Assembly: GCF_021390645.1 (NCBI RefSeq)
Contig: NZ_JAJEJT010000005.1
Coordinates: 434,001-498,000 of the forward strand
From: Paraburkholderia flagellata
Lineage (GTDB): Bacteria; Pseudomonadota; Gammaproteobacteria; Burkholderiales; Burkholderiaceae
Length of the DNA: 64,000 bases
Direction: 5' to 3'
Shown here: positions 38,495 to 53,566 of the stretch, one piece after another
Layout of the letters: each line of letters starts with the position of its first letter
Position numbering within the stretch: position 1 is the stretch's first letter
Program-made: the position numbers and the translations under genes
Notes under the pieces: generated by a model
What the model was told of the DNA's origin: nothing
The model's input: the letters and a program-made list of their open reading frames with translations, nothing else
The model's database searches: none

Positions 38495-38498
<4 letters not shown>
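38271..38498 (+). pseudogene. Decayed ankyrin-repeat protein gene (3' fragment)
   Basis: The plus-strand frame reads RLARLNGALFAALFGRADLV, Pro, stop (TAA 38352-38354), then LGARGANPEHVDALGSTAIQ, VAAQQGNVSTIAALEKARP and a final TAG at 38496. The repeat pattern (ALxxAALxGRxDLVxxLLxxGANPxxxDxxGxTAxxxAAxxGNxxxxxxL) is that of ankyrin repeats. With no start and an internal stop, it is a remnant. It slightly overlaps the 3' end of the threonine aldolase gene on the other strand. Confidence 0.6.
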
Positions 38499-39499
<1,001 letters not shown>

Positions 39500-39589
39500 T
39501 TGAAATTCCTTTGAAACATCGCAATCGTGCGTCGCGGAGCGCAGAGCAACTGCGCCGCGACCCTTTCGACACCGACGGCCGGTGTGCGG

Positions 39590-40492
39590 TCAGACGCCCT
39601 CGGGCATACGGCCGAGCCCCGCATCCAGTTGTGCGCAGAGGCCAACCGCGGCCCAGTCATGCTCCGCGCCATAGCCCTGCGCGCGCAACGTGACGAAGCG
39701 ATCGTGAACAAGGTTGGCAAGGGGCATCGGGACGCCAAGTGCCTCCGCGGCAGCCATGATCAGACGATTGTCTTTCTGACCGAGAGGCAGTGCGAATGCG
39801 GCTGGTTGAAATTGGCGTTTTGCGATCAACGATCCGTAAATCCTGAAAGCTGGTGAGTTAAAGGGCGTATTGGTCAGCAATTCGACGAGGTGCGACGGTT
39901 CGATGCCCGCCTTTGCAGCGACCGCGCACGCCTCCCCAAGCATTTCGATAATGCCGGAGAGCATGAAATTGCCAATCAGCTTCACCAGATTAGCGTGAGA
40001 CGGGTCGGTGCCAACAATCCCCACCGACTGGCCGAGCTGTTCGAGCAATGGCACTGCGACCTTCAGATGCTCGTCTGCGCCGGCCGCCATGATGAAGAGC
40101 TTGCGCGCCGCTGCCGCGTCGGGCCTGCCGAATACGGGAGCCGAAACGAACCCGAACCCTGCCTGGCGATGAAAATCGGCAAGCTCGCGCGCTGCAGCCA
40201 CGCTGATCGTGCTCATCGAGATATGTATGGCACCAGGCCGCATTCCCGACGCAATGCCAGTCTCGCCGCGAGTGACGGCGGTGAGCGCCGCATCGTCGGC
40301 CACCATGGAAAACACGACATCCGCCAACCAGGCTGCCTGCGCAGGCGAGGCCGCCACATTTGCTCCGGCCTGACGCAACGACTCGGTGCGCTCGGGACTC
40401 CTGTTAAATACGTGCACGTCATGCCCGGATTCGACGAGATTCTTTGCAATCGCTGAGCCCATCGATCCAAGGCCAATAAATCCAATTCTCAT
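39590..40492 (-). CDS. NAD(P)-dependent beta-hydroxyacid dehydrogenase family protein (HIBADH/GLYR type)
   Basis: 300 residues with an N-terminal GFIGLGSMGSAIAKNL cofactor motif and the catalytic lysine in ANLVKLIGNFMLSG. The substrate loop reads SAPVFGRPDAAAA rather than the DAPVSGG of tartronate-semialdehyde reductases, a pattern shared with imine-reductase-like and plant glyoxylate-reductase-like members. Thus it may reduce an aldehyde or an imine different from the GarR-like enzyme in the same cluster. It lies between an iron alcohol dehydrogenase and the threonine aldolase genes. Confidence 0.87.
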   Translation of the reverse strand: MRIGFIGLGSMGSAIAKNLVESGHDVHVFNRSPERTESLRQAGANVAASPAQAAWLADVVFSMVADDAALTAVTRGETGIASGMRPGAIHISMSTISVAAARELADFHRQAGFGFVSAPVFGRPDAAAARKLFIMAAGADEHLKVAVPLLEQLGQSVGIVGTDPSHANLVKLIGNFMLSGIIEMLGEACAVAAKAGIEPSHLVELLTNTPFNSPAFRIYGSLIAKRQFQPAAFALPLGQKDNRLIMAAAEALGVPMPLANLVHDRFVTLRAQGYGAEHDWAAVGLCAQLDAGLGRMPEGV

Positions 40493-40525
40493 GACAATTC
40501 CAGTAATCGGTTAAACGTGGCAGCT

Positions 40526-41680
40526 TTACGCCGCGAGCTGATAGACACGTCGGCTTACTTCTGGAGTGATATCTCCGTGTTCTCCCAGCGCCGTCATGCC
40601 GTGCTCCATCAGCTTGGCGATCAAGGGCTCGAGCGAACTGCCGTCAATCTGGTAATCGCTCAAGTGCGTCTTGACGGTCATACGTTCAAAGAACTCACGC
40701 GTCGCGCCAATCGCCGCGGTGATGCGGTCGTCCTCACTCCCATCCCTGATATTCCAGACACGCTCGGCGTATTGAAGCAGCTTGTACCGCTTCTCCTCCC
40801 TGCGCACCTCGAGCATGGCAGGCAGCACGATTGCCAGCGTTTGCGCGTGGTCGAGCCCGTGAAGCGCGGTGATTTCGTGACCCAGCATGTGCGTGGCCCA
40901 GTCTTGCGGCACGCCCGCCCCGATCAGCCCGTTCAGTGCAAGCGTGGCCGCCCACATGACATTGGCTCGCACGTCGTAGTCGTGGGGATTCGCCATGGCT
41001 TCTGGGCCCACCTCCTTCAACGTGAGCAACAGACCTTCGGCAAAGCGATCCTGCACCTTCGCTTGAACCGGATAGGTAAGGTATTGCTCGACGACGTGGA
41101 CAAATGCGTCCACCACGCCGTTCGCGATCTGCCTCGGCGGCAGCGAAAAGGTCGTCGTCGGGTCGAGCACTGAAAAACGCGGATAGGTCGCATCGCTGCG
41201 AAACGGCAGCTTGTCCCCTTTCGCGCGATGGCTGATCACGCCTCCGTTGTTCATTTCGGAGCCTGTGGCCGGCAGCGTCAAGACACAACCGAACGGCACC
41301 GCATCGTGCACCGGTACCTGCTTCGCAAGGATGTCCCAGGCCTCGCCGTCGAATTTGAGCGCCGCCGCGATGAATTTCGTTCCGTCGATGACCGATCCGC
41401 CGCCCACCGCGAGCAGGAAATCGACCTTTTTTTCGCGGGCAAGCGCGACGGCTTTCATGAGTGTTTCATACGTGGGGTTCGGCTCGATACCTTCGAATAC
41501 GAAGTGCTTTCGTTCACCGAGTGCGTCTTCCACTTCCTCGAGGACTCCGTTGCGTTTGATGCTGCCGCCACCACTCGTAATCAGCACGGTTGCGTCGCGC
41601 GGGATCTCCGCGTCGAGCGCAGCAATCTGGCCTTCGCCAAAGATGATTCTCGTGGGGTTGTGGTAAGTAAAATGTTCCAT
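40526..41680 (-). CDS. Iron-containing alcohol dehydrogenase (YqhD/BDH-like)
   Basis: 384 residues from ATG 41680 (MEHFTYHNPTRIIFG is the canonical family start, so the longer frame was rejected). The GGGS cofactor motif (LLAVGGGSVIDGTKF) is present, and metal ligands are in NGVVDAFVHVVEQY and in MLGHEITALHGLDHAQTLAI. The YqhD/butanol-dehydrogenase group reduces aldehydes with NADPH. Within this operon it may detoxify or use an aldehyde formed by the molybdenum hydroxylase pathway or by threonine aldolase. Confidence 0.9.
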   Translation of the reverse strand: MEHFTYHNPTRIIFGEGQIAALDAEIPRDATVLITSGGGSIKRNGVLEEVEDALGERKHFVFEGIEPNPTYETLMKAVALAREKKVDFLLAVGGGSVIDGTKFIAAALKFDGEAWDILAKQVPVHDAVPFGCVLTLPATGSEMNNGGVISHRAKGDKLPFRSDATYPRFSVLDPTTTFSLPPRQIANGVVDAFVHVVEQYLTYPVQAKVQDRFAEGLLLTLKEVGPEAMANPHDYDVRANVMWAATLALNGLIGAGVPQDWATHMLGHEITALHGLDHAQTLAIVLPAMLEVRREEKRYKLLQYAERVWNIRDGSEDDRITAAIGATREFFERMTVKTHLSDYQIDGSSLEPLIAKLMEHGMTALGEHGDITPEVSRRVYQLAA

Positions 41681-41768
41681 TGATTCACTGATCCTTAAAT
41701 CGATTTGACTGCTTGCATGCGCCGAGCGGCGATTACAGGGGGCAACGCGAGTGGTGGGTCCTTTTCCT

Positions 41769-42953
41769 TCATGCCGCATCGGCAAACGCCTTTACGACGT
41801 TGACCCAATACGCCGCGCCGATGGCAAGCGCGTCGTCGTTGAAGTCGTAATAGGGGTTGTGGAGGGGCGCACTCGCGGTTTCGCCATCTACGCCAATCCA
41901 GATGTATGCGCCCGGCTTCTCCCGCGCCATATACGCGAAGTCTTCCGACGCCATTGACGGCTGGCAGCCGAAGACCACGGATTCGTTGCCAACGGTCCTG
42001 CGCGCGGCGCAGAGAGCGACCCGTGTGGCACGTGCTGCGTTGACGGTCGCCGGGTAGCCTTCGTGGTACACGAAGGATGCGCGCGCGCCGTGTGCCGTGG
42101 CGGTCGTCGTGCTGATTTCCTCCAGCAAAGCGCAGATCTTCGCCTGAACTTCGCTCGACAGGCAGCGAACGGTACCGCGTATCACGGCACGATCGGGCAG
42201 GACGTTCCACGACTCGCCGCCATGGATCTGTGTGACACTGACCACGGCGGACTCTTTAGGCGACAACCGCCGGCTCACAATCGATTGAAGCGCGACGACA
42301 ATGTGGCTCGCACAAACGAGCGCATCGATTCCCTCCTCCGGCATCGCGGCATGCGAACCCTTGCCTGCAACGTTAATCTCGAACGTGTCGAAGGACGCCA
42401 TCATCGCCGAGTCGTTGATTGCGAATGCGCCCAATGGCAGTCCGGGCCAGTTGTGCATTCCGAAGACGGCATCGCAAGGGAAGCGCTCGAACAAGCCATC
42501 CTCGATCATTACCTTGCCGCCACCCGCCACTTCCTCGGCTGGCTGGAAGATCAGGTGAACCGTGCCGCTCCAGTCCTCGTCGCGCTTGAGCAGCGCCGCG
42601 GCGCCCAGTAGCATCGCCGTGTGACCGTCGTGCCCACACGCGTGCATCTTGCCGGGATTGCGCGATCGATGAGCATAGTCGTTGAGTTCGATCATCGGCA
42701 GCGCATCCATGTCTGCCCGCAACGCGAGCGCGGGGCCGTTGCCGCGTTCAAGCGTGCCGACCACGCCTGTTTTGCCGACTCTTTCGGACACGTCGTAACC
42801 GAGATCCCGCAACACCGATGCCACCAGCGTCGCAGTCGATACTTCCTCGAACGCCGTTTCGGGGTGCGCGTGCAATTTTTGCCGCCACGATTTCATGTCG
42901 GCGACCAGATCGGCATCAACCACCGTTTCATTTGTATCAACTATGAATGTCAT
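41769..42953 (-). CDS. M20 family amidohydrolase (aminoacylase/hippurate-hydrolase-like)
   Basis: 394 residues. It has the metal-binding core HACGHDGHTAMLLGAA, the catalytic glutamate pair in FQPAEEVAGGGK, a dimerisation domain (GKGSHAAMPEEGIDAL) and a C-terminal metal ligand in SEDFAYM. M20D enzymes hydrolyse N-acyl amino acids or amidic side products. In this cluster, a ring-opened amide or N-acyl intermediate made after hydroxylation is a reasonable substrate, but this is inference. Confidence 0.88.
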   Translation of the reverse strand: MTFIVDTNETVVDADLVADMKSWRQKLHAHPETAFEEVSTATLVASVLRDLGYDVSERVGKTGVVGTLERGNGPALALRADMDALPMIELNDYAHRSRNPGKMHACGHDGHTAMLLGAAALLKRDEDWSGTVHLIFQPAEEVAGGGKVMIEDGLFERFPCDAVFGMHNWPGLPLGAFAINDSAMMASFDTFEINVAGKGSHAAMPEEGIDALVCASHIVVALQSIVSRRLSPKESAVVSVTQIHGGESWNVLPDRAVIRGTVRCLSSEVQAKICALLEEISTTTATAHGARASFVYHEGYPATVNAARATRVALCAARRTVGNESVVFGCQPSMASEDFAYMAREKPGAYIWIGVDGETASAPLHNPYYDFNDDALAIGAAYWVNVVKAFADAA

Positions 42954-42974
42954 GATGTGCTCATCCCCGTGTGT

Positions 42975-43286
42975 TCACACTGCCGGACTAAACGGCGCCG
43001 GCGCGAGAAACACCGACTCTTGATGCACGAGATAAGGCAACATGCGCGGCGTAAATGCCAGCCACTCTGGATCGCATGCGAGTTTTGAACGTTGCTCGGC
43101 GCGATGCGCGTAACTGTCGTAAGCCCAGCAGAACACAACGGAGTTCAGCGTGCCTGACTCCTTTGTCCAGCACCCTTGCAGTCGCGCATACAGCGAGATG
43201 ATGTGGAGTCCATTGCGTTCATAAAAGGTGAGAAATTCGGCGACCTTACCGGGCACAATCTGGTATGTGCGCATTTCAACCAACAT
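42975..43286 (-). CDS. NIPSNAP family protein
   Basis: 103 residues of the NIPSNAP/ABM ferredoxin-like fold: MLVEMRTYQIVPGKVAEFLT at the start and a C-terminal half with WLAFTPRMLPYLVHQESVFL. Bacterial members often sit in catabolic operons and may be small enzymes or chaperones; none has an agreed function. AGGAG with ideal spacing precedes the ATG. It lies between the CoxG-like and M20 genes. Confidence 0.87.
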   Translation of the reverse strand: MLVEMRTYQIVPGKVAEFLTFYERNGLHIISLYARLQGCWTKESGTLNSVVFCWAYDSYAHRAEQRSKLACDPEWLAFTPRMLPYLVHQESVFLAPAPFSPAV

Positions 43287-43362
43287 GTTTAATTCTCCTG
43301 AAAGACGCGAGCGGGCTGGGGGCGTGCCAACATCGCGCGTTCACGTCACGCTCGCGACCTGC

Positions 43363-44052
43363 TCAAAACCCGTGTGCGAGTACGAAGCCGATCACCAGAC
43401 CGGCCACACCAGCCGCCACGCCCGTCACAACGTAATTCGCCCACGCTGTACGGGGCGTGCTCGTAGTACTCGACCCAACGCCGCTGCGCGGATCCGCACA
43501 CGCTGTAGTGGTCGTTCGTGCTTGTTCGACGGCAGCGGCGTCGTGCGACGCCGCAGGCAACGCGGCCATCCCGTCAAGCGCTGGGTATTGGACCGATGAG
43601 TCCCTCACGGCGCCTTGTTCGATGTGCGCGCGAAACGCGTCGAAAAACGCTTCGAGTTGCCTCGCCGCGGCCGACTGGATCAGGCGAGCGCCAACGCTCA
43701 TCAATTTCCCTCCCACTTCGACATCGGCATCGTAGATCAGCAGCGTCGCGTCGCCCTGCGCCTCCAGCCTCACGCGTGCATTGACCTTCGCGAAGCCCGC
43801 CGCGCCCGCATTTCCGTGGCCGATAATCGTATAGGCATGCGGCGGCTCCAGATCGGTCAGTTCGACGGCACCGCGAAAGGTCGCGCTTACCGGCCCGACT
43901 CGCGCTTGCACTTTCGCTTCGAAATGACGTTCATCGACCATGTGCAGCGACTCGCAGCCGGGAAGCACGGCCTCCAGAACGCGTGGATCATTCAGTGCCG
44001 CCCAGACCGCAGCCGGGCGCACAGGCAGCATGCACATGTCGGTCAACTTCAT
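43363..44052 (-). CDS. coxG: CoxG-like SRPBCC protein (CO dehydrogenase subunit G family) with C-terminal membrane anchor
   Basis: 229 residues: an SRPBCC/CoxG domain in the first 150 (LPVRPAAVWAALNDPRVLEA, LPGCESL, DADVEVGGKLMSVGARLIQS), a low-complexity linker, and a terminal membrane helix (NYVVTGVAAGVAGLVIGFVL). CoxG anchors the molybdenum CO dehydrogenase to the membrane and is found with other molybdenum hydroxylases. Its ATG overlaps the GarR-like stop (ATGA), so it is translationally coupled. Confidence 0.87.
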   Translation of the reverse strand: MKLTDMCMLPVRPAAVWAALNDPRVLEAVLPGCESLHMVDERHFEAKVQARVGPVSATFRGAVELTDLEPPHAYTIIGHGNAGAAGFAKVNARVRLEAQGDATLLIYDADVEVGGKLMSVGARLIQSAAARQLEAFFDAFRAHIEQGAVRDSSVQYPALDGMAALPAASHDAAAVEQARTTTTACADPRSGVGSSTTSTPRTAWANYVVTGVAAGVAGLVIGFVLAHGF

Positions 44053-44960
44053 TTGAGCGGCTCCGTGTCATACATTCTGGACAGCGCATGGGTTCCCGAG
44101 CGCGCGTGGCCGGCGTCGGCGAGACGCCGGAACATCGAGCGTACGAGTTCCAGGCCCGGCAATTCCCGCCCCATCAGTGCCGCTTCCTCGGCCGCTATGC
44201 GCATGTCCTTGATGAAGTGTTCGATCATGAAGCCCGGTGCATAGTCCCCACGCACGATGCGCGGCCCGAGATTGTTCAACTGGAAGCTACCCGCGGCACC
44301 GCCGCCGATCGAGTTGAGGACCGTCTGTGGATCGAGCCCTGCGCGTGCCGCGTACGCAAGACCCTCGCAAACGCCGAGGAGCGTCGAAGCGATCACAATC
44401 TGATTGCACAGCTTGGTGTGCTGGCCTGCACCCGGGCCGCCTTGCAGCACGACATTCGCACCCAGGTGGCGCAGGATCGGCTCGACGCGCGCCAGCGTCT
44501 CGGCCCTTCCGCCAACCATGATTGCGAGGCGGCCATCGCGCGCGCCGACGTCTCCGCCAGATACGGGTGCGTCGAGCACTTCGACACCGCGCGCGGCGCC
44601 TTTGCCGGCAATCTCGCGCGCCAGTGCGGGGCTGGAAGTCGTCATATCGACCAGCACCGTGCCCGGCCGCGCGTGCTCAATCAAACCATCGCTACCGAGG
44701 TACAGCGCGCGCACATCATCAGGCATGCCAACGATTGTCACGACGACGTCGGATGCCACCGCAACGGAGCCCGGTGTGTCGTGCCATTGAGCGCCGGACG
44801 CCACAAGCGGCTCGGCCTTCTCACGTGAACGGTTGTACAGATGCAGCGAATAGCCCGCCGCGATCAGCCTGCTAGCCATCGCGCCACCCATGATGCCGAG
44901 GCCGATGAATCCAACAGCCGGCAATGTCACGCCTTCTTTCATATCGTTTCGTCCAGTCAT
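44049..44960 (-). CDS. garR: 2-hydroxy-3-oxopropionate (tartronate semialdehyde) reductase-like
   Basis: 303 residues with GFIGLGIMGGAMASRL at the cofactor site, the substrate loop DAPVSGGDVGARDG and the catalytic lysine in GQHTKLCNQI, as in GarR/GlxR. It reduces tartronate semialdehyde to glycerate or a related 3-oxo/3-hydroxy acid. Its start and stop overlap both neighbours by 4 bp (ATGA), which places it firmly within the molybdenum hydroxylase operon rather than with the aldarate genes 10 kb away. Confidence 0.87.
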   Translation of the reverse strand: MTGRNDMKEGVTLPAVGFIGLGIMGGAMASRLIAAGYSLHLYNRSREKAEPLVASGAQWHDTPGSVAVASDVVVTIVGMPDDVRALYLGSDGLIEHARPGTVLVDMTTSSPALAREIAGKGAARGVEVLDAPVSGGDVGARDGRLAIMVGGRAETLARVEPILRHLGANVVLQGGPGAGQHTKLCNQIVIASTLLGVCEGLAYAARAGLDPQTVLNSIGGGAAGSFQLNNLGPRIVRGDYAPGFMIEHFIKDMRIAAEEAALMGRELPGLELVRSMFRRLADAGHARSGTHALSRMYDTEPLK

Positions 44961-47308
44961 ATTGAGTCACGCAACAGCTCGCGTATGAACATCGGCGACA
45001 GCGGGTGCCGGTCGGCGACCACGCCGAATGGCGACATCGCATCATTGAGTGCATTCGTGACGGCGCCGATCGCGCCCATGACGCCGCCTTCAGCCATGCC
45101 CTTGATTCCGGCTGCGGTCGAGCGGCTCGGTGTATGCATCGCGATGATTTCGATATCGGGCAACTCGGCCGAGGTCGCAATCAGATATTCCGCAAGCGAT
45201 CCGGTGGTGTTCTGCCCGGCTTCGTCGTAAATCACCTGCTCGAACAATGCACCCGACAGGCCCATCGCGATCGCGCCGTGTTGCTGGCCCTCCACCACTG
45301 TCGGGTTCAGCAACGTCCCGCAATCTTCAGCGACCACATAACGCACGAGGGTCAACGCACCGGTCGCAATGTCGAGCTCGACTTCGCACGCATGCGCAGA
45401 GTTGGAGTACGTCATCGCCGGCGGGTCGTACGTCAGATGAAACTCGAGGCCTGGCGTCAATCCGTCGGGCAATGAGGTCGGGTCCAGATAGGCCTGGCGC
45501 GCGATGTCGGCCAATGTCACGCCTGTTTCCAGCCAGTTCTCGCCGCACCGGCGTTCGACGCAGCCGTCCACGAGCCGAAGCGCATCAACGGGTTCGCCGA
45601 GCCGGGCAGCTGCGATTGCGAGGACTTTGCGCCGAGCCTGCTGCGCGCAAAGGAACAACGCCCCGCCGCCGGCCGTCGCGCTGCGCGCTCCGCGGCTTCC
45701 CATGCCGTATGGCGCAACGTCCGTGTGTCCCATATGGATCATCACGCGCGAGGGGTCGACGCCGAGACCCTCGGCAACCGCGTTCGCCATCGCGCTTTCG
45801 TAGCCCTGTCCGGTCGGCCCCAGCCCGAGTGACGCGTTGACGACTCCAGTCGGCTCAATCCGTATCCAGCTGGCTTCGTGTCCCGACCCGGGTATGCCGG
45901 CCGCCTTGTAGAACTTCGAGCCGTAGGTCGTCGGTTCGACGACATTGCACAGGCCAAGCCCCAAATGGCGCCCTTTGGCGCGCGCTTCGCGCTGCCGTGC
46001 GCGAAAGCCCTCGTAGCCGATGGCACGCACGAGCGCCTCGAAAGTTTCGGTGGGCGTGATGTCGGACAGCAGTTCTCCCGTCGGTGTCCGCCAGGGCAGC
46101 TCCTGCGGCTTGATGAGGTTGCGGCGCCGCACCTCGACGGGGTCGAGGCACAGCGTTCGCGCTATTGCCTCGATCGTCCCGTCCATCACCCAACTCGTGA
46201 TCGACATCGGCGCGCGCATCGGAGCGTTGCCGCATTTGTGGCTGAGCACGACCTTGACGTCGAACGCGTAGTGCTCAAGCCGGTATGGGCCGCTCAATAT
46301 CATTGCGACCACGCGCGCAAGATAATTCGCGGGGAAGAAGCAATACGCCCCGAAGTCCTCGCGCATTTCGAGCGTCAACGACAGCAAGGTTCCTCGCTCG
46401 TCGACGGCTGCCCGCGTGCGGCAAAAGTCCTCGCGCGAATTCGCGGCCGCACTCAGGTTCTCGAGCCGGTCCTCTCGCCAACGCACAGGCCGGCCAAGAT
46501 GGCGAGCCAGCGCGGCCACGACGAGTTCCTCGCGATACAGGGCGATCTTCTGTCCAAATGCGCCGCCCACGTCCGGTGAGATCACTGTGACCTGGGATTC
46601 GTCGAGCGCGAGACGCGCAGCCAGTTGCGTACGCAACGGATGGGGTACCTGCGAGCCGATATGGAACGTCAGATGTTCGCGGCCCCGGTCCCAGACCGCA
46701 GCGCAACCCCGCGTCTCGATTGGCACGTGAGTCTGGCGCGCCTGTGAGAAGGTCGCCTCGACGACGCGGTAGGCGGTGCGCTCGGCCTCACCCGGATCGC
46801 CATGCGCAAAGGTCTGGTGCGAAATCAGATTGCCGGGAACCATCGGGTCTACCTGAGGCGCATCCGCTTCCAGCGCCCGCCACATGTCGGACACGGCCGG
46901 CAGCGGGTCGAACTCCACGTAGACCTTTTCCGCCGCATCCTCGGCCGCATAACGATCCATCGCTACGACGCACGCTACGGGATCGCCGTGGAAGCGCACC
47001 ACCTCGGTCGGGAGTGCGTCTACCTCGACAGGAAGCAAGCCCTCGATCGGCGGCGCCATGCGCAAAGGCCGTGTCCATTGCACGAGATCGCTGCCGGTGA
47101 CAACTGCGATTACGCCCGGCATCGCAAGCGCTTCGCTCGTATCGATTGACGCGATGCGTGCATGCGCGTGGGGCGAGCGGACAAAGCAGGCGTGCAGCGC
47201 GCCGGGAATGTCGATGTCGTCGACATAGCGGCCGAGGCCGGTCAACAGTCGATAGTCCTCGGTGCGGCGCGCGGGCCGGTTCAGGTAGCGAAATGCACTC
47301 TCAGACAT
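44957..47308 (-). CDS. Molybdenum hydroxylase large (molybdopterin-binding) subunit, xanthine dehydrogenase/CoxL family
   Basis: 783 residues: aldehyde oxidase/xanthine dehydrogenase a/b hammerhead domain (LTGLGRYVDDIDIPGALHAC) then the Mo-binding domain (DVGGAFGQK, AEGGVMGAIGAV with the catalytic glutamate). The active-site loop reads NAPMRAPMSITSW, unlike the CO dehydrogenase form I (AYxCSFR) or form II (AYRGAGR) signatures, so CO oxidation is unlikely; it should hydroxylate an aldehyde or N-heterocycle. The start at 47308 is chosen because GGGAGG lies six bases upstream; it overlaps the small-subunit stop by 8 bp. The substrate is unknown. Confidence 0.88.
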   Translation of the reverse strand: MSESAFRYLNRPARRTEDYRLLTGLGRYVDDIDIPGALHACFVRSPHAHARIASIDTSEALAMPGVIAVVTGSDLVQWTRPLRMAPPIEGLLPVEVDALPTEVVRFHGDPVACVVAMDRYAAEDAAEKVYVEFDPLPAVSDMWRALEADAPQVDPMVPGNLISHQTFAHGDPGEAERTAYRVVEATFSQARQTHVPIETRGCAAVWDRGREHLTFHIGSQVPHPLRTQLAARLALDESQVTVISPDVGGAFGQKIALYREELVVAALARHLGRPVRWREDRLENLSAAANSREDFCRTRAAVDERGTLLSLTLEMREDFGAYCFFPANYLARVVAMILSGPYRLEHYAFDVKVVLSHKCGNAPMRAPMSITSWVMDGTIEAIARTLCLDPVEVRRRNLIKPQELPWRTPTGELLSDITPTETFEALVRAIGYEGFRARQREARAKGRHLGLGLCNVVEPTTYGSKFYKAAGIPGSGHEASWIRIEPTGVVNASLGLGPTGQGYESAMANAVAEGLGVDPSRVMIHMGHTDVAPYGMGSRGARSATAGGGALFLCAQQARRKVLAIAAARLGEPVDALRLVDGCVERRCGENWLETGVTLADIARQAYLDPTSLPDGLTPGLEFHLTYDPPAMTYSNSAHACEVELDIATGALTLVRYVVAEDCGTLLNPTVVEGQQHGAIAMGLSGALFEQVIYDEAGQNTTGSLAEYLIATSAELPDIEIIAMHTPSRSTAAGIKGMAEGGVMGAIGAVTNALNDAMSPFGVVADRHPLSPMFIRELLRDSI

Positions 47309-47789
47309 CGGCGGCCTCCCCACGCAGGCGTTCGGCCGCCAACAGCACCGCGCGCACGATGTTCTGATAGCCGGTGCACCGGCATAGATTGCCGGAGAGC
47401 ACGTCGCGGACCTCGGCTGCGGATGGCTGCGGATTCTCGCGCAGATAGGCGTCGAACGTCATCACGATGCCGGGGGTGCAAAAGCCACACTGCAACGCGT
47501 GCCGCTCGTGGAAGGCCTGCTGAAGCACCGAGAGCCGCGCGCCGGCCGCCATGCCTTCGATCGTTGTGATGCGCGCTTCTTGCGCCTGCACGGCGAACGT
47601 CAGGCACGCTCGCGCAAGCTGTCCGTCGATCTGCACCGTGCATGCGCCGCAGACGCCGTGTTCGCAGCCCACATGCGTGCCGGTCAACCGGCAATCTTCG
47701 CGCAATGCGTCCGAGAGGAGTTTGCGGGATTCGCAATGCACCGCATGCCGCGTGCCGTTGACTTCGAAATGGATCAGCTTCGTTTCCAT
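47301..47789 (-). CDS. Molybdenum hydroxylase small [2Fe-2S] subunit (CoxS family)
   Basis: 162 residues with two [2Fe-2S] clusters: a plant-type cluster (GCEHGVCGACTV plus a later Cys) and the alpha-helical cluster (CGFCTPGIVM ... GNLCRCTGYQNI). These carry electrons from the Mo site to the FAD subunit. The ATG at 47789 (METKLIHFEVNG) gives the family's usual start, 7 bp after the FAD-subunit stop; a start at 47828 would overlap that gene. Confidence 0.9.
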   Translation of the reverse strand: METKLIHFEVNGTRHAVHCESRKLLSDALREDCRLTGTHVGCEHGVCGACTVQIDGQLARACLTFAVQAQEARITTIEGMAAGARLSVLQQAFHERHALQCGFCTPGIVMTFDAYLRENPQPSAAEVRDVLSGNLCRCTGYQNIVRAVLLAAERLRGEAADV

Positions 47790-47796
47790 GGCCGTT

Positions 47797-48681
47797 TCAA
47801 GTGTTATGCGCGGGGCTATGCGCGTCAATTCCGCATGCGCGCGCGAGTGCGCGCGCGGTCAACGCCTCGACAAGATCGCGCCGGTACGCGGCGCTGATCT
47901 GCGGATGGTCGGCAGGCTCGACCGCCGCTGCCGCACGCTTGCCGATACGCGCAACCGTGGCAGCGTCCGCGAGAGCGCCTTCAAAATCGGCCGCCACTTC
48001 GTTGAGCGTGAACGGCACGTCGCTCACGCCACCGATGCCGATGCGCAATGCGCTCAGGCGCCCTGCCTCGACCACTGCTGTCACCGCGCAGGCAGCGATC
48101 GCGAAGTCGCCTTGACGGCGGCTAAATAGCTCGAATCCCTGTTTTTCGCCGGGCCGCGCACACGGGAAGTCAACGGCGGTGACGATCTCGTCCGCATCGA
48201 GCGAGGTAGTCATGGTCGCGAGCAGGAAGTCAGTCGCCTCGATTTCGCGCGTGCCTCCATTCGCGGCCACCTTGATTCGTGCACTCAAGGTGCGTGCGAT
48301 CAACGGCAACTGGGCCGCCGGGTCCGCATTCGCCATGCTCCCGCCGAGCGTGCCCCGCTGGCGGATCGCGAAGTGACCGATCGTGCCTGCGGCTTGCGCA
48401 AGAAGCGGACAAGCGTCTCTCACGAGCCGGTTCGTCGCCAGTTCGTGATGGCGAGTCAGCGCGCCGATCGACAGCGTGTCAGCGGAGCGCGCGATACCGG
48501 TGAGTTCCTCGAGCGCGTTCAGGTCAATGACGTGCGCGGGTTGCGCGAGGCGCATGTTCATCATCGGCACGAGCGACTGCCCCCCGGCGATCACCTTCGC
48601 GTCGAAGCCGTGCTCGGCGAGCAACACCAGCGCTTCGCCGAGCGTGCCCGGCCGATGATAGGAAAAGACAGATGGTTTCAT
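47797..48681 (-). CDS. Molybdenum hydroxylase medium FAD-binding subunit (CoxM family)
   Basis: 294 residues. It has the FAD-binding PCMH fold (KVIAGGQSLVPMMNMRLAQP, ATIGHFAIRQRGTLGGSMANADPAAQ) and the C-terminal CO-dehydrogenase flavoprotein domain (FPCARPGEKQGFELFSRRQG). It passes electrons to a quinone or other acceptor. It is the promoter-proximal gene of the ten-gene minus-strand operon. Two TetR-type operator copies lie 64-77 and 165-196 bp upstream of its start. Confidence 0.9.
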   Translation of the reverse strand: MKPSVFSYHRPGTLGEALVLLAEHGFDAKVIAGGQSLVPMMNMRLAQPAHVIDLNALEELTGIARSADTLSIGALTRHHELATNRLVRDACPLLAQAAGTIGHFAIRQRGTLGGSMANADPAAQLPLIARTLSARIKVAANGGTREIEATDFLLATMTTSLDADEIVTAVDFPCARPGEKQGFELFSRRQGDFAIAACAVTAVVEAGRLSALRIGIGGVSDVPFTLNEVAADFEGALADAATVARIGKRAAAAVEPADHPQISAAYRRDLVEALTARALARACGIDAHSPAHNT

Positions 48682-48744: not shown

Positions 48745-48758
48745 TCGTCAAATGACGA
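48745..48758. promoter_or_regulatory. TetR-type operator copy 1 (TCGTCA-AA-TGACGA)
   Basis: A perfect 6+6 bp inverted repeat with a 2-bp spacer in the promoter region of the molybdenum hydroxylase operon. It is identical in both arms to the sites at 48855-48868 (within the long repeat) and 49868-49881. Confidence 0.65.
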
Positions 48759-48845
48759 CAACATTCCTACGACCTTTCACTCGATTAAATTGGCTGTTTC
48801 GCCGCGTCAATCATTAGCGATGCTTCAGACGAACAATATTCCCAA

Positions 48846-48877
48846 TTGCATAAGTCGTCAACTGACGACTTATGCAA
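48846..48877. promoter_or_regulatory. Long perfect inverted repeat with TetR-type operator core (copy 2)
   Basis: Two perfectly complementary 15-base arms (left arm TTGCATAAGTCGTCA, 48846-48860) flank the central AC; the right arm ends at 48877. The core is the same TCGTCA-N2-TGACGA found at the two other sites. It lies in the 357-bp gap between the TetR gene stop and the first gene of the molybdenum hydroxylase operon. Confidence 0.7.
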
Positions 48878-49038
48878 CGGACAGCTGCACGCGCGGCGGG
48901 ATCGTGGAAACCGCCGAATGTGAGTGCAAAAGGGCGCGCGCTTGCGCACCCTGATGGAGATGTGAAGTTTGTTTAGGGCCGCAGCCAGGCGTGCGGAAGA
49001 ACGGCACTGAATCGCCAGCGCCGTTCGAGCTTCGAGAG

Positions 49039-49827
49039 TCAGGCAGGCGGGAGCGGCGGAAGAAGTGCCGGAACGCTCGCCAGAAACGCGCGCACCGTCA
49101 TTGCGATAACGTCTTCCACCGGCATCGCGTCGTCGTGACCATAGATGCGGCGACGGATCGCAAGGTGCGAAATGGCGCCGTGCAAGATCCAGCCGACCTC
49201 CTTGAGTCCGTCGATAGTTGGCGGGACCGATCGCCCTGCTTCATGAGCGGCCTCTGTCACGACAATCTCGAGTGCATGGGAAATGACTGCGTTCGAGTAT
49301 GCCGGCGCCATGCTCAGGCCAGCCAGTGACGAAAAGAGGAACAGCCGCAACCACCGGCGCGTGAGCAGCGTCTCGTAGTATTCGCGATAGAAAGCGATCA
49401 AACGTGCCTCAATTGGCACGCCCCGATCCTTGAGATTGACGAACCAGATCGCCTTGAACAGGCCGGCTATTTCATGGTTGTAAACTTCTTCGATCAGCGC
49501 TGCCTTGCTCGGAAACAAGCTGTAGAGCAAGCGCTGGGAGACGCCGCATACTTCCGCGATAGCCCTTGTCTGCGCCTCCAACCCGTGCTCGGAGAAGTAG
49601 TCGGCGGCCTTGGCAAGAACGAGCGCCCGGCGCTCGGTGCGCGGCAGGCGCCGCACGATCGTTTGCTTCGGGTGCCTCGCGTGGGTATCGCCCGAAGTTG
49701 CGCGGTCCGCCTGCACATCCTCCTTGTCCTGCATCCCCGCTGCGGGAGCACGCTTGCCTCGCGTAACGCGGTGGCGCGACTCGGCCGCCGGCTGGGCTTT
49801 CGCCGTGCCTTTCATGTTCCCTTTCAT
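49039..49827 (-). CDS. TetR-family transcriptional regulator
   Basis: 262 residues: a basic, low-complexity N-terminal extension of about 60 residues, then the TetR HTH (RRALVLAKAADYFSEHGLEA, QTRAIAEVCGVSQRLLYSLF, PSKAALIEEVY), then a helical ligand domain. The start is 49827 or 49815. It lies upstream of and on the same strand as the molybdenum hydroxylase operon, with one operator copy 41-54 bp before its start (autoregulation) and two before the operon. The ligand is unknown, probably the substrate or an intermediate of that pathway. Confidence 0.9.
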   Translation of the reverse strand: MKGNMKGTAKAQPAAESRHRVTRGKRAPAAGMQDKEDVQADRATSGDTHARHPKQTIVRRLPRTERRALVLAKAADYFSEHGLEAQTRAIAEVCGVSQRLLYSLFPSKAALIEEVYNHEIAGLFKAIWFVNLKDRGVPIEARLIAFYREYYETLLTRRWLRLFLFSSLAGLSMAPAYSNAVISHALEIVVTEAAHEAGRSVPPTIDGLKEVGWILHGAISHLAIRRRIYGHDDAMPVEDVIAMTVRAFLASVPALLPPLPPA

Positions 49828-49867
49828 GCTTCTCTCGCTGGTTTTTCATACTATTATCCAACGAAAG

Positions 49868-49881
49868 TCGTCACTTGACGA
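49868..49881. promoter_or_regulatory. TetR-type operator copy 3 (TCGTCA-CT-TGACGA)
   Basis: A perfect inverted repeat identical in both arms to the copies at 48745 and 48855, placed just upstream of the TetR gene start. Expected site of autoregulation. Confidence 0.65.
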
Positions 49882-51765: not shown

Positions 51766-52770
51766 ATGCGGATCAGGAAGGTCCCTACGACTGTAATCAC
51801 CGGCTTTCTCGGCGCAGGCAAAACCACCCTCGTCAATCACGTGCTCGACGCCACGCGGCCCATGCCAATCGGCATCGTTGTGAACGAGTTTGGTGAAGTG
51901 GGTATCGACGGCAAGATGATCGTCGCCGAAGAAGAAGCCATTGTGGAGATCAGCAACGGCTGCGTGTGCTGCACTGTGCGCGCCGACCTCGTGACGAGTG
52001 TGCTCGCGCTGCTCGACCGCTTCGGCGACGGGCTGGAACGGCTGCTCGTCGAGACCTCGGGGCTCGCCGACCCGGCGCCCGTCCTGCAGACGTTTCTCGC
52101 CGACCCCGACGTGCGCGAACGCGTCGATCTGGAATCCGTGGTGGTGGTCGTCGACGCGTGTCACGCGCAAGCACAGCTCAGCGACGACATCGCACGCGAG
52201 CAGGTCGTCTTTGCCGATCGCATTGTCGTGAACAAAGCCGATACGGCTACGCCCGAACAGATTGAGTCGCTGCAGGCAACGCTGCGGCAGCTCAATCCGG
52301 CCGCGACGCACGAGTTGGCGACGCACGCCCGGATCGACGTGCCCGTGCTCCTCTCGACGAAGACGTTCTCTGTCGACCATCTGCTCACTCTCGAGCCGGA
52401 CATCCTCGATGACGGCGAGCACGAACACGAACACGATACGAGCATCGAGTCTTTCGGTTTCGTGATTCCCGGCGCACTCGACCCGCTGCGTTTCAACCGC
52501 TGGGCGAACCAGCTTGTGCAGGCGCAAGGCTTATCCTTGCTGCGCATGAAAGGCGTGCTGAACATCGACGGCGAAACGCGCCGTCTCCATTTCCACAGTG
52601 TCCACATGCTGATGGATACGCACTTCGGCAAAGCATGGGCGCGCGACGAAATGCGCGAAAGCCGTTTCGTCGCGATCGGCCGCGGCCTGGATGCGCACGC
52701 GTTGCGCGCCGGTCTGCTGGGTTGTGTCGCCTCGGCATCAGTTGGTACCGCGCCTATGGCAATACCCTGA
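51766..52770 (+). CDS. CobW/P47K-type GTPase, nitrile hydratase activator
   Basis: A 334-residue G3E GTPase. Walker A is TGFLGAGKTTLV, the metal-binding CxCC motif is GCVCCTVRADL, NKAD is the guanine-specificity motif, and a His-rich acidic loop (GEHEHEHDT) could carry the metal. Relatives called P47K are needed for activity of some nitrile hydratases and deliver cobalt or iron. It is followed 52 bp later by the beta-subunit gene, the normal operon context for such an activator. Confidence 0.88.
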   Translation: MRIRKVPTTVITGFLGAGKTTLVNHVLDATRPMPIGIVVNEFGEVGIDGKMIVAEEEAIVEISNGCVCCTVRADLVTSVLALLDRFGDGLERLLVETSGLADPAPVLQTFLADPDVRERVDLESVVVVVDACHAQAQLSDDIAREQVVFADRIVVNKADTATPEQIESLQATLRQLNPAATHELATHARIDVPVLLSTKTFSVDHLLTLEPDILDDGEHEHEHDTSIESFGFVIPGALDPLRFNRWANQLVQAQGLSLLRMKGVLNIDGETRRLHFHSVHMLMDTHFGKAWARDEMRESRFVAIGRGLDAHALRAGLLGCVASASVGTAPMAIP

Positions 52771-52822
52771 GTCTCCCCTTCTCCATAATGGCTCGATCCA
52801 TTTTCAACGATATGGACTCCAA

Positions 52823-53566
52823 ATGAAACTCCAACACCACCTCGGCGGACTCGAAAACCTCGGACCCGTCAACCTGGACACGCGCGTGTTCGCCCAGCCG
52901 TGGGAGCAGCGCATCTTCGGCATCCACACCGCCATGATGGCCGAGAGCGCGCACCTCGACAATGCGCTGCCGGGATATCCCATCAAGACGCTGCCAACCA
53001 CGTTCCGCAGCGACTGGACATGGGCGTCGCTGCGCACCGGTGCAGAGGGCATGCAACCGTTCGAATACTTCAAGTTCCGCTACTACGAGAAATGGCTTGG
53101 CGGCATTGCACAGTTTTTCATCGACGCGGGCTACCTCACTGCACAGGAGCTGGCCGACAAGACCGCGCTCTACCGCAGCCAGCCTGACTCCCCGCTGCCC
53201 CATCGGCCCAACACGGCGCTCGACGCGCAGATCGACGCATACCTTCAGCAAGGCGATTCGCCTCGGCACGCTAGCGGGAAGGCAGCGCGCTTCAAGGTGG
53301 GCCAGCGCGTGCGCGTTGCGGACCCCGAAGCCGTCGATCACACGCGTCTGCCGGGTTATCTGCGCAATAAGACGGGCACTGTAGAGCGCGTTTATCCGGA
53401 CACCTACGCATATTTCGTTTCGACCGGCGTGGACGGCATCGGCGAACCCATGCCGGTCTATCGCATTGCCTTCGAGGCAGTGGACATCTGGGGCACCGGC
53501 AAGAGCGAGGCCAACACGACGATTTACGCCGATCTGTTCGAAGCCTACGTGGCAGCGGTTGCCTGA
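52823..53566 (+). CDS. nthB: Nitrile hydratase subunit beta
   Basis: 247 residues with the N-terminal beta-subunit segment (HHLGGLENLGPVN, FAQPWEQRIFGIHTAM, ALPGYPIKTLPTTFRSDWTW) and the C-terminal SH3-like domain (FKVGQRVRV, HTRLPGYLRNKTGTVERVYP). With the alpha subunit it hydrates nitriles to amides. The start at 52823 is set by family alignment and GGA upstream; the longer frame is not protein-like. Beta precedes alpha here, the reverse of the iron-type operons of Rhodococcus but seen in other cobalt types. Confidence 0.93.
   Translation: MKLQHHLGGLENLGPVNLDTRVFAQPWEQRIFGIHTAMMAESAHLDNALPGYPIKTLPTTFRSDWTWASLRTGAEGMQPFEYFKFRYYEKWLGGIAQFFIDAGYLTAQELADKTALYRSQPDSPLPHRPNTALDAQIDAYLQQGDSPRHASGKAARFKVGQRVRVADPEAVDHTRLPGYLRNKTGTVERVYPDTYAYFVSTGVDGIGEPMPVYRIAFEAVDIWGTGKSEANTTIYADLFEAYVAAVA

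Follow-up and report, generated by a model that had tools for sequence, protein, structure and literature searches.

Three palindromic sites, very probably TetR operators, at a tetR gene and a molybdenum hydroxylase operon of Paraburkholderia flagellata

Genes of the locus

The window, i.e. the whole 64-kb stretch of P. flagellata DNA that was analysed, carries ten co-directional genes at 38495-48681 on the same strand as the gene of a TetR-family regulator; the original prediction of a ten-gene operon is thus matched by the gene layout (Table 1).

Table 1. Coordinates of genes, probable operators and the predicted operon promoter (window positions)
Feature	Position	Strand	Remarks
L-threonine aldolase, low-specificity	38495..39499	-	Above NCBIfam cut-off; last operon gene
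Second beta-hydroxyacid dehydrogenase-type reductase	39590..40492	-	
Iron-containing alcohol dehydrogenase	40526..41785	-	Start uncertain
M20-family amidohydrolase	41769..42953	-	
NIPSNAP-domain protein	42975..43286	-	
CoxG-like SRPBCC protein	43363..44052	-	
Beta-hydroxyacid dehydrogenase-type reductase	44049..44960	-	2-hydroxy-3-oxopropionate reductase-like, below cut-off
coxL-like molybdopterin subunit	44957..47323	-	Best solved relative quinoline 2-oxidoreductase; without CO-dehydrogenase cysteine loop
coxS-like [2Fe-2S] subunit	47301..47828	-	Start probably ATG near 47789
coxM-like FAD-binding subunit of molybdenum hydroxylase	47797..48681	-	First operon gene
Operator O2	48745..48758	.	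Core TCGTCA-AA-TGACGA; within predicted operon leader
Predicted operon promoter	48833..48861	-	TTGACG (48861-48856), 17 nt, TATTGT (48838-48833); -35 = O1 half-site
Operator O1	48846..48877	.	15-bp arms, 2-nt centre; core TCGTCA-AC-TGACGA at 48855-48868
TetR-family regulator	49039..49827	-	262 aa; HTH residues 71-115
Operator O3	49868..49881	.	Core TCGTCA-CT-TGACGA; 41 bp upstream of tetR

The enzyme encoded by the first three genes has the domains of the xanthine oxidase family: PF00941/PF03450 in the FAD-binding subunit, PF00111/PF01799 in the [2Fe-2S] subunit and PF01315/PF02738/PF20256 in the molybdopterin subunit. Aerobic CO dehydrogenase operons have the subunit order coxM-coxS-coxL, and the window operon shares with them this order, the xanthine-oxidase family domains and a CoxG-like gene. 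Still, CO dehydrogenase was rejected as the operon enzyme. CoxL of aerobic CO dehydrogenase has an active-site loop AYXCSFR with a Cu-binding cysteine, seen as AYRCSFR in the CO dehydrogenase chain 1zxi_B; the window protein has APMRAPMS against VAYRCSFR in this chain, and its scores are far below the CO dehydrogenase cut-offs (474.6 of 991.15 for TIGR02416 and 516.4 of 950 for NF040766). The best solved relative of the large subunit is quinoline 2-oxidoreductase (PDB 1t3q; same length, E 2.5e-139), a likeness by sequence only; the partners in the window operon, namely M20 amidohydrolase, threonine aldolase and reductases, do not suggest quinoline.

The regulator belongs to the TetR family by its TetR_N HTH domain (PF00440, 42.2 bits versus a cut-off of 24); the structure model, with low confidence at residues 1-52, predicts the all-helical TetR fold with a C-terminal ligand and dimer domain. 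The HTH region is largely invariant among relatives. We found 616 homologous proteins at E 1e-40 or better; the 120 of them listed had generic names only, with no named close relative, and no close relative was found among solved chains. Comparison of the model with the PDB gave many tied matches and indicated no single ligand.

Beyond the regulator, on the plus strand, there are genes for a CobW-type GTPase and a nitrile hydratase beta subunit (window 51766-53566); no exact copy of the palindrome described below was found near them.

Copies of the palindrome in the window and in the genome

The palindrome TCGTCA-N2-TGACGA was said to occur in three perfect copies and nowhere else in the window. 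Both statements were confirmed: exact copies of TCGTCANNTGACGA are located at 48745-48758, 48855-48868 and 49868-49881, with no further one within the 64 kb. In 100 dinucleotide-preserving shuffles 0.01 copies were expected, and the maximum was one. Occurrence at random density genome-wide, which would have refuted the prediction, was not seen: the 9.0-Mb genome has four exact copies, versus about 0.4 expected from base composition and none for the pattern read backwards. With up to two mismatches the excess was small, 241 matches versus 183 for the reversed control; weak sites (two mismatches) are not callable because of these counts.

The copies were also described as identical; this holds for the half-sites but not for the central dinucleotide, which is AA, AC or CT. 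Similarly, the ‘32-bp perfect inverted repeat’ at 48846-48877 consists of two perfect 15-nt arms, with the two central bases unpaired (30 of 32 bases symmetric). The centres of O1 and O2 are 110 bp apart, and the same 110 bp was observed in P. heleia (locus L035). We asked whether paired sites keep a fixed helical phase and rejected this: their spacings, about 106 to 312 bp, share no phase, and therefore we make no claim of looping.

The fourth genomic copy (C4:1100632, locus L001) is followed at 58 bp by an ORF whose translation we read as LysR-type. We rejected this copy as a regulon member on two grounds: its flanks are G+C-richer (6 of 16 positions are A or T), and the site is found again in a genome (L116) that has no close copy of the window TetR. 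This copy is probably unrelated to the TetR regulon.

Conservation of the motif beside tetR

We surveyed 144 genomes of the genus. A TetR match at E 1e-20 or lower was returned for 43 of them, and 18 of these, including the window's genome, have copies with at least 65% identity. For the other 17 genomes, all 17 returned loci had the motif with at most one mismatch. By contrast, it was absent from 12 of 12 loci returned for TetR relatives at 35-37% identity, a part of the lower-tier matches.

We then considered 50 loci of the TetR subfamily (44-100% identity): 42 loci scanned in named genomes of Paraburkholderia, Caballeronia, Pararobbsia, Cupriavidus, other Burkholderiales and Alphaproteobacteria, the window itself and seven further loci. 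The motif with at most one mismatch was found beside the TetR gene, i.e. within 300 bp before or 500 bp after the TetR match, in 49 of them, Alpha- and Betaproteobacteria included; the alphaproteobacterial loci with the motif have TetR at 44-54% identity. In the sole exception, L079, an exact copy is located farther from TetR. Absence from orthologous promoters, which would have refuted the prediction, was therefore not what we saw. These loci are related by descent, so that the counts of conservation and co-occurrence are not independent.

A set of 71 sites yielded the 22-bp consensus TA(A/T)(G/A)TCGTCA-N2-TGACGA(C/T)(T/A)TA. Excess symmetry beyond the core was clear for about five positions and weak at the next three. 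The 32-bp length was thus rejected as a conserved feature; the 15-bp arm of the window is the longest among the 71 sites. In the window's genome the O1 core is the sole exact match to this consensus, drawn mostly from relatives; with up to three mismatches O2 alone is added, while O3 and the fourth copy fall short. The suggestion that TetR has its highest affinity for the long repeat is thus plausible given the consensus match and the position on the predicted −35, though the full 15-bp arm length is not conserved.

Co-occurrence of TetR, motif and operon

The exact motif was present in all 18 TetR-bearing genomes of the genus versus 41 of the 126 others (Fisher 1.8e-8, with kinship ignored); the latter number is more than the few found with the reversed control. 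The TetR-bearing genomes have 35 exact sites, of which 34 were examined (one of two in G140 was left out). Thirty of the 34 are intergenic and four are inside called ORFs, by assignments resting on an ORF picker written for this analysis; two of these four calls are doubtful (a 65-codon ORF and an overlong start of a binding-protein gene in L049). Of the exact sites in TetR-bearing genomes, six are flanked by G+C-rich sequence and have no reference genes beside them: the fourth copy of the window's genome and those in L133, L137, L140, L141 and L142. Judged by their surroundings, these six look like chance occurrences.

A CoxL orthologue (at least 78% identity, E at most 1e-200) was found in 13 of the 18 TetR-bearing genomes and in none of the 126 others (Fisher 8e-15, a value that ignores kinship and overstates independence). 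An exact site is situated upstream of 13 of the 14 operon copies. Nine operon copies with an exact site, reached through motif positions alone, are at least 8 kb from tetR or on another contig. For the remaining copy, G030:C98 (L149), the 16 kb read contained no site with at most one mismatch; the ABC transporter part upstream of this operon copy is broken or different.

Promoter layout

A consensus scan placed O1 over the −35 of the predicted operon promoter and O3 over the predicted −35 of a tetR-side promoter, TCGTCA-17-GATAAT; two promoter-like sites were found in the scanned stretch versus 0.6 expected in shuffles. We looked for the same layout at 26 sites downstream of tetR, not every one of which precedes a molybdenum hydroxylase operon. 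Among spacings 8-59 the −10 match peaked at 17 nt (mean 2.88 of 6, the next-best spacing giving 2.46), with a match of at least 4 at 17 nt in 11 of the 26 sites. Ten sites away from tetR were picked by hand, nine of them before operon copies and the tenth before a remnant (L135); each has TATCNT at the 17-nt spacing, a match of 4 of 6. No promoter spacing was clearly conserved at tetR-side sites in relatives, and the −35/−10 layout was not seen at three TonB-receptor-side sites. Since the −35 lies within an O1 half-site and the −10 recurs at 17 nt, repression at the operon would most likely proceed by covering the −35.

Regulatory model and alternatives

The three palindromes are very probably binding sites of the adjacent TetR. 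Autoregulation combined with operon control, as proposed originally, is the best reading, favoured by the co-occurrence of TetR, motif and operon across the genus, with binding itself inferred; we have high confidence that this TetR represses both its own gene and the ten-gene operon by binding the palindrome as a dimer. A dimer would occupy the 22-bp consensus; at O3 it would repress tetR itself, and at O1 and O2 the molybdenum hydroxylase operon. At O1 RNA polymerase would be kept out of the operon −35, while O2, located in the leader, might serve as a roadblock or as a second contact. The repressor would presumably be released by a substrate or intermediate of the pathway.

Binding of the same sites could instead result in activation, as it does for some TetR-family proteins, and among NCBIfam models the HTH region does match that of an activator, FasR, best, at 32.8 bits versus a cut-off of 330. 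Yet activators usually sit upstream of the −35, whereas O1 covers the predicted −35 of the operon, in a layout that recurs in relatives; we consider activation unlikely. That another regulator binds the palindromes, which would then stay near tetR merely through conservation of the locus, is less likely still. Exact sites do occur in 41 of the 126 genomes that lack a close TetR copy, which might be cited in its favour; however, of the 22 such sites returned as loci only two are intergenic, and the 20 inside ORFs look like chance. Moreover, the sites track TetR in spite of differing neighbours (MFS, TonB-receptor and MCP neighbourhoods).

The inverted repeat at 48846-48877 might also be read as an RNA hairpin, a terminator of tetR or an attenuator, rather than an operator. 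Its 15-bp arms are situated ∼160 bp downstream of the tetR stop codon, and a terminator scan picked O3 as a weak terminator-like site (two found, 1.9 expected in shuffles). The long repeat itself, however, was absent from that scan and no T run follows it; the same core is also located upstream of tetR and at unlinked promoters, and in relatives the arm symmetry is weak or absent past about five positions outside the core. Of the readings considered we give this one the least credence. Repression by TetR, on the other hand, makes the result a testable one, with a defined 22-bp operator to set beside its regulator and the layout of the promoter; compounds that release the repressor would offer a direct route to the substrate of a conserved, uncharacterised molybdenum hydroxylase.

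Comparison with known regulators

The system appears to be an autoregulated local TetR repressor, an ordinary type of switch for a catabolic pathway. Like repressors of the TetR, AcrR and QacR type, the regulator has the PF00440 HTH, a predicted all-helical fold and palindromes at its own and the adjacent predicted promoter, traits of the TetR family; unlike them, it has its own operator sequence and targets. In the same genus, the TetR-family protein Bxe_B3018 of P. xenovorans LB400 has an operator at two promoters, its own and another gene's, in a glycine/serine/threonine context that resembles the window's (PMC4349456). The operator given there, C(T/G)AGAA(T/C)GATC(G/A)TTCT(C/A)C, is unlike TCGTCA-N2-TGACGA (PMC4349456).

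A literature search, in the titles and abstracts shown, returned no description of the window TetR, its operator or the operon. The LB400 orthologue of this TetR could be among the regulators of Maity et al. 2012, reportedly a study of TetR and MarR operators of B. xenovorans.

Related loci and a possible wider regulon

Many related operons carry, ahead of coxMSL, genes of a sugar-type ABC transporter (SBP_bac_1, two permeases and a UgpC-like ATPase); after coxMSL come reductase and CoxG, in some cases a porin, and M20. The window operon has no ABC transporter. In some betaproteobacterial loci NIPSNAP, with or without L-serine ammonia-lyase, is divergent from tetR with the operator in between. 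Both genes, L-serine ammonia-lyase and NIPSNAP, are divergent from tetR in L077:8182-9895, L078, L081, L086, L091 and L092, where the operator adjoins tetR. The window operon ends in L-threonine aldolase where loci of the L077 type have L-serine ammonia-lyase.

P. heleia (L035) has lost everything from a point inside coxM up to the alcohol dehydrogenase gene and has kept all three operators; the threonine aldolase there is matched in pieces only. At L035:6088-9130, and also in L058, ∼111 codons of coxM are followed by the iron alcohol dehydrogenase gene, with coxS to M20 not found there.

Exact copies of the motif, often with a one-mismatch partner, were also observed in L130, L131, L132, L135, L136, L143, L146, L054 and L055. 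These copies precede MFS carriers or separate a TonB receptor from a phosphoesterase, which suggests a wider regulon in some Paraburkholderia. We put forward as a tentative idea that the operator marks an undescribed regulon across Alpha- and Betaproteobacteria, with uptake coupled to a molybdenum hydroxylase pathway. Its uptake part might possibly comprise the sugar-type ABC transporter, porin, MFS carriers and the TonB receptor beside the phosphoesterase. The enzyme part, which is equally speculative, might include molybdenum hydroxylase, CoxG, NIPSNAP, M20 and one of two further enzymes, L-serine ammonia-lyase or L-threonine aldolase. Transport and enzyme genes that are not linked would in this way fall into one candidate regulon; such a gene set, if real, would suit breakdown of an amide-linked hydroxyamino-acid compound by a novel pathway.

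One genome, G120 (L041, L042 and L054), has three TetR copies, one of them with an internal stop codon.
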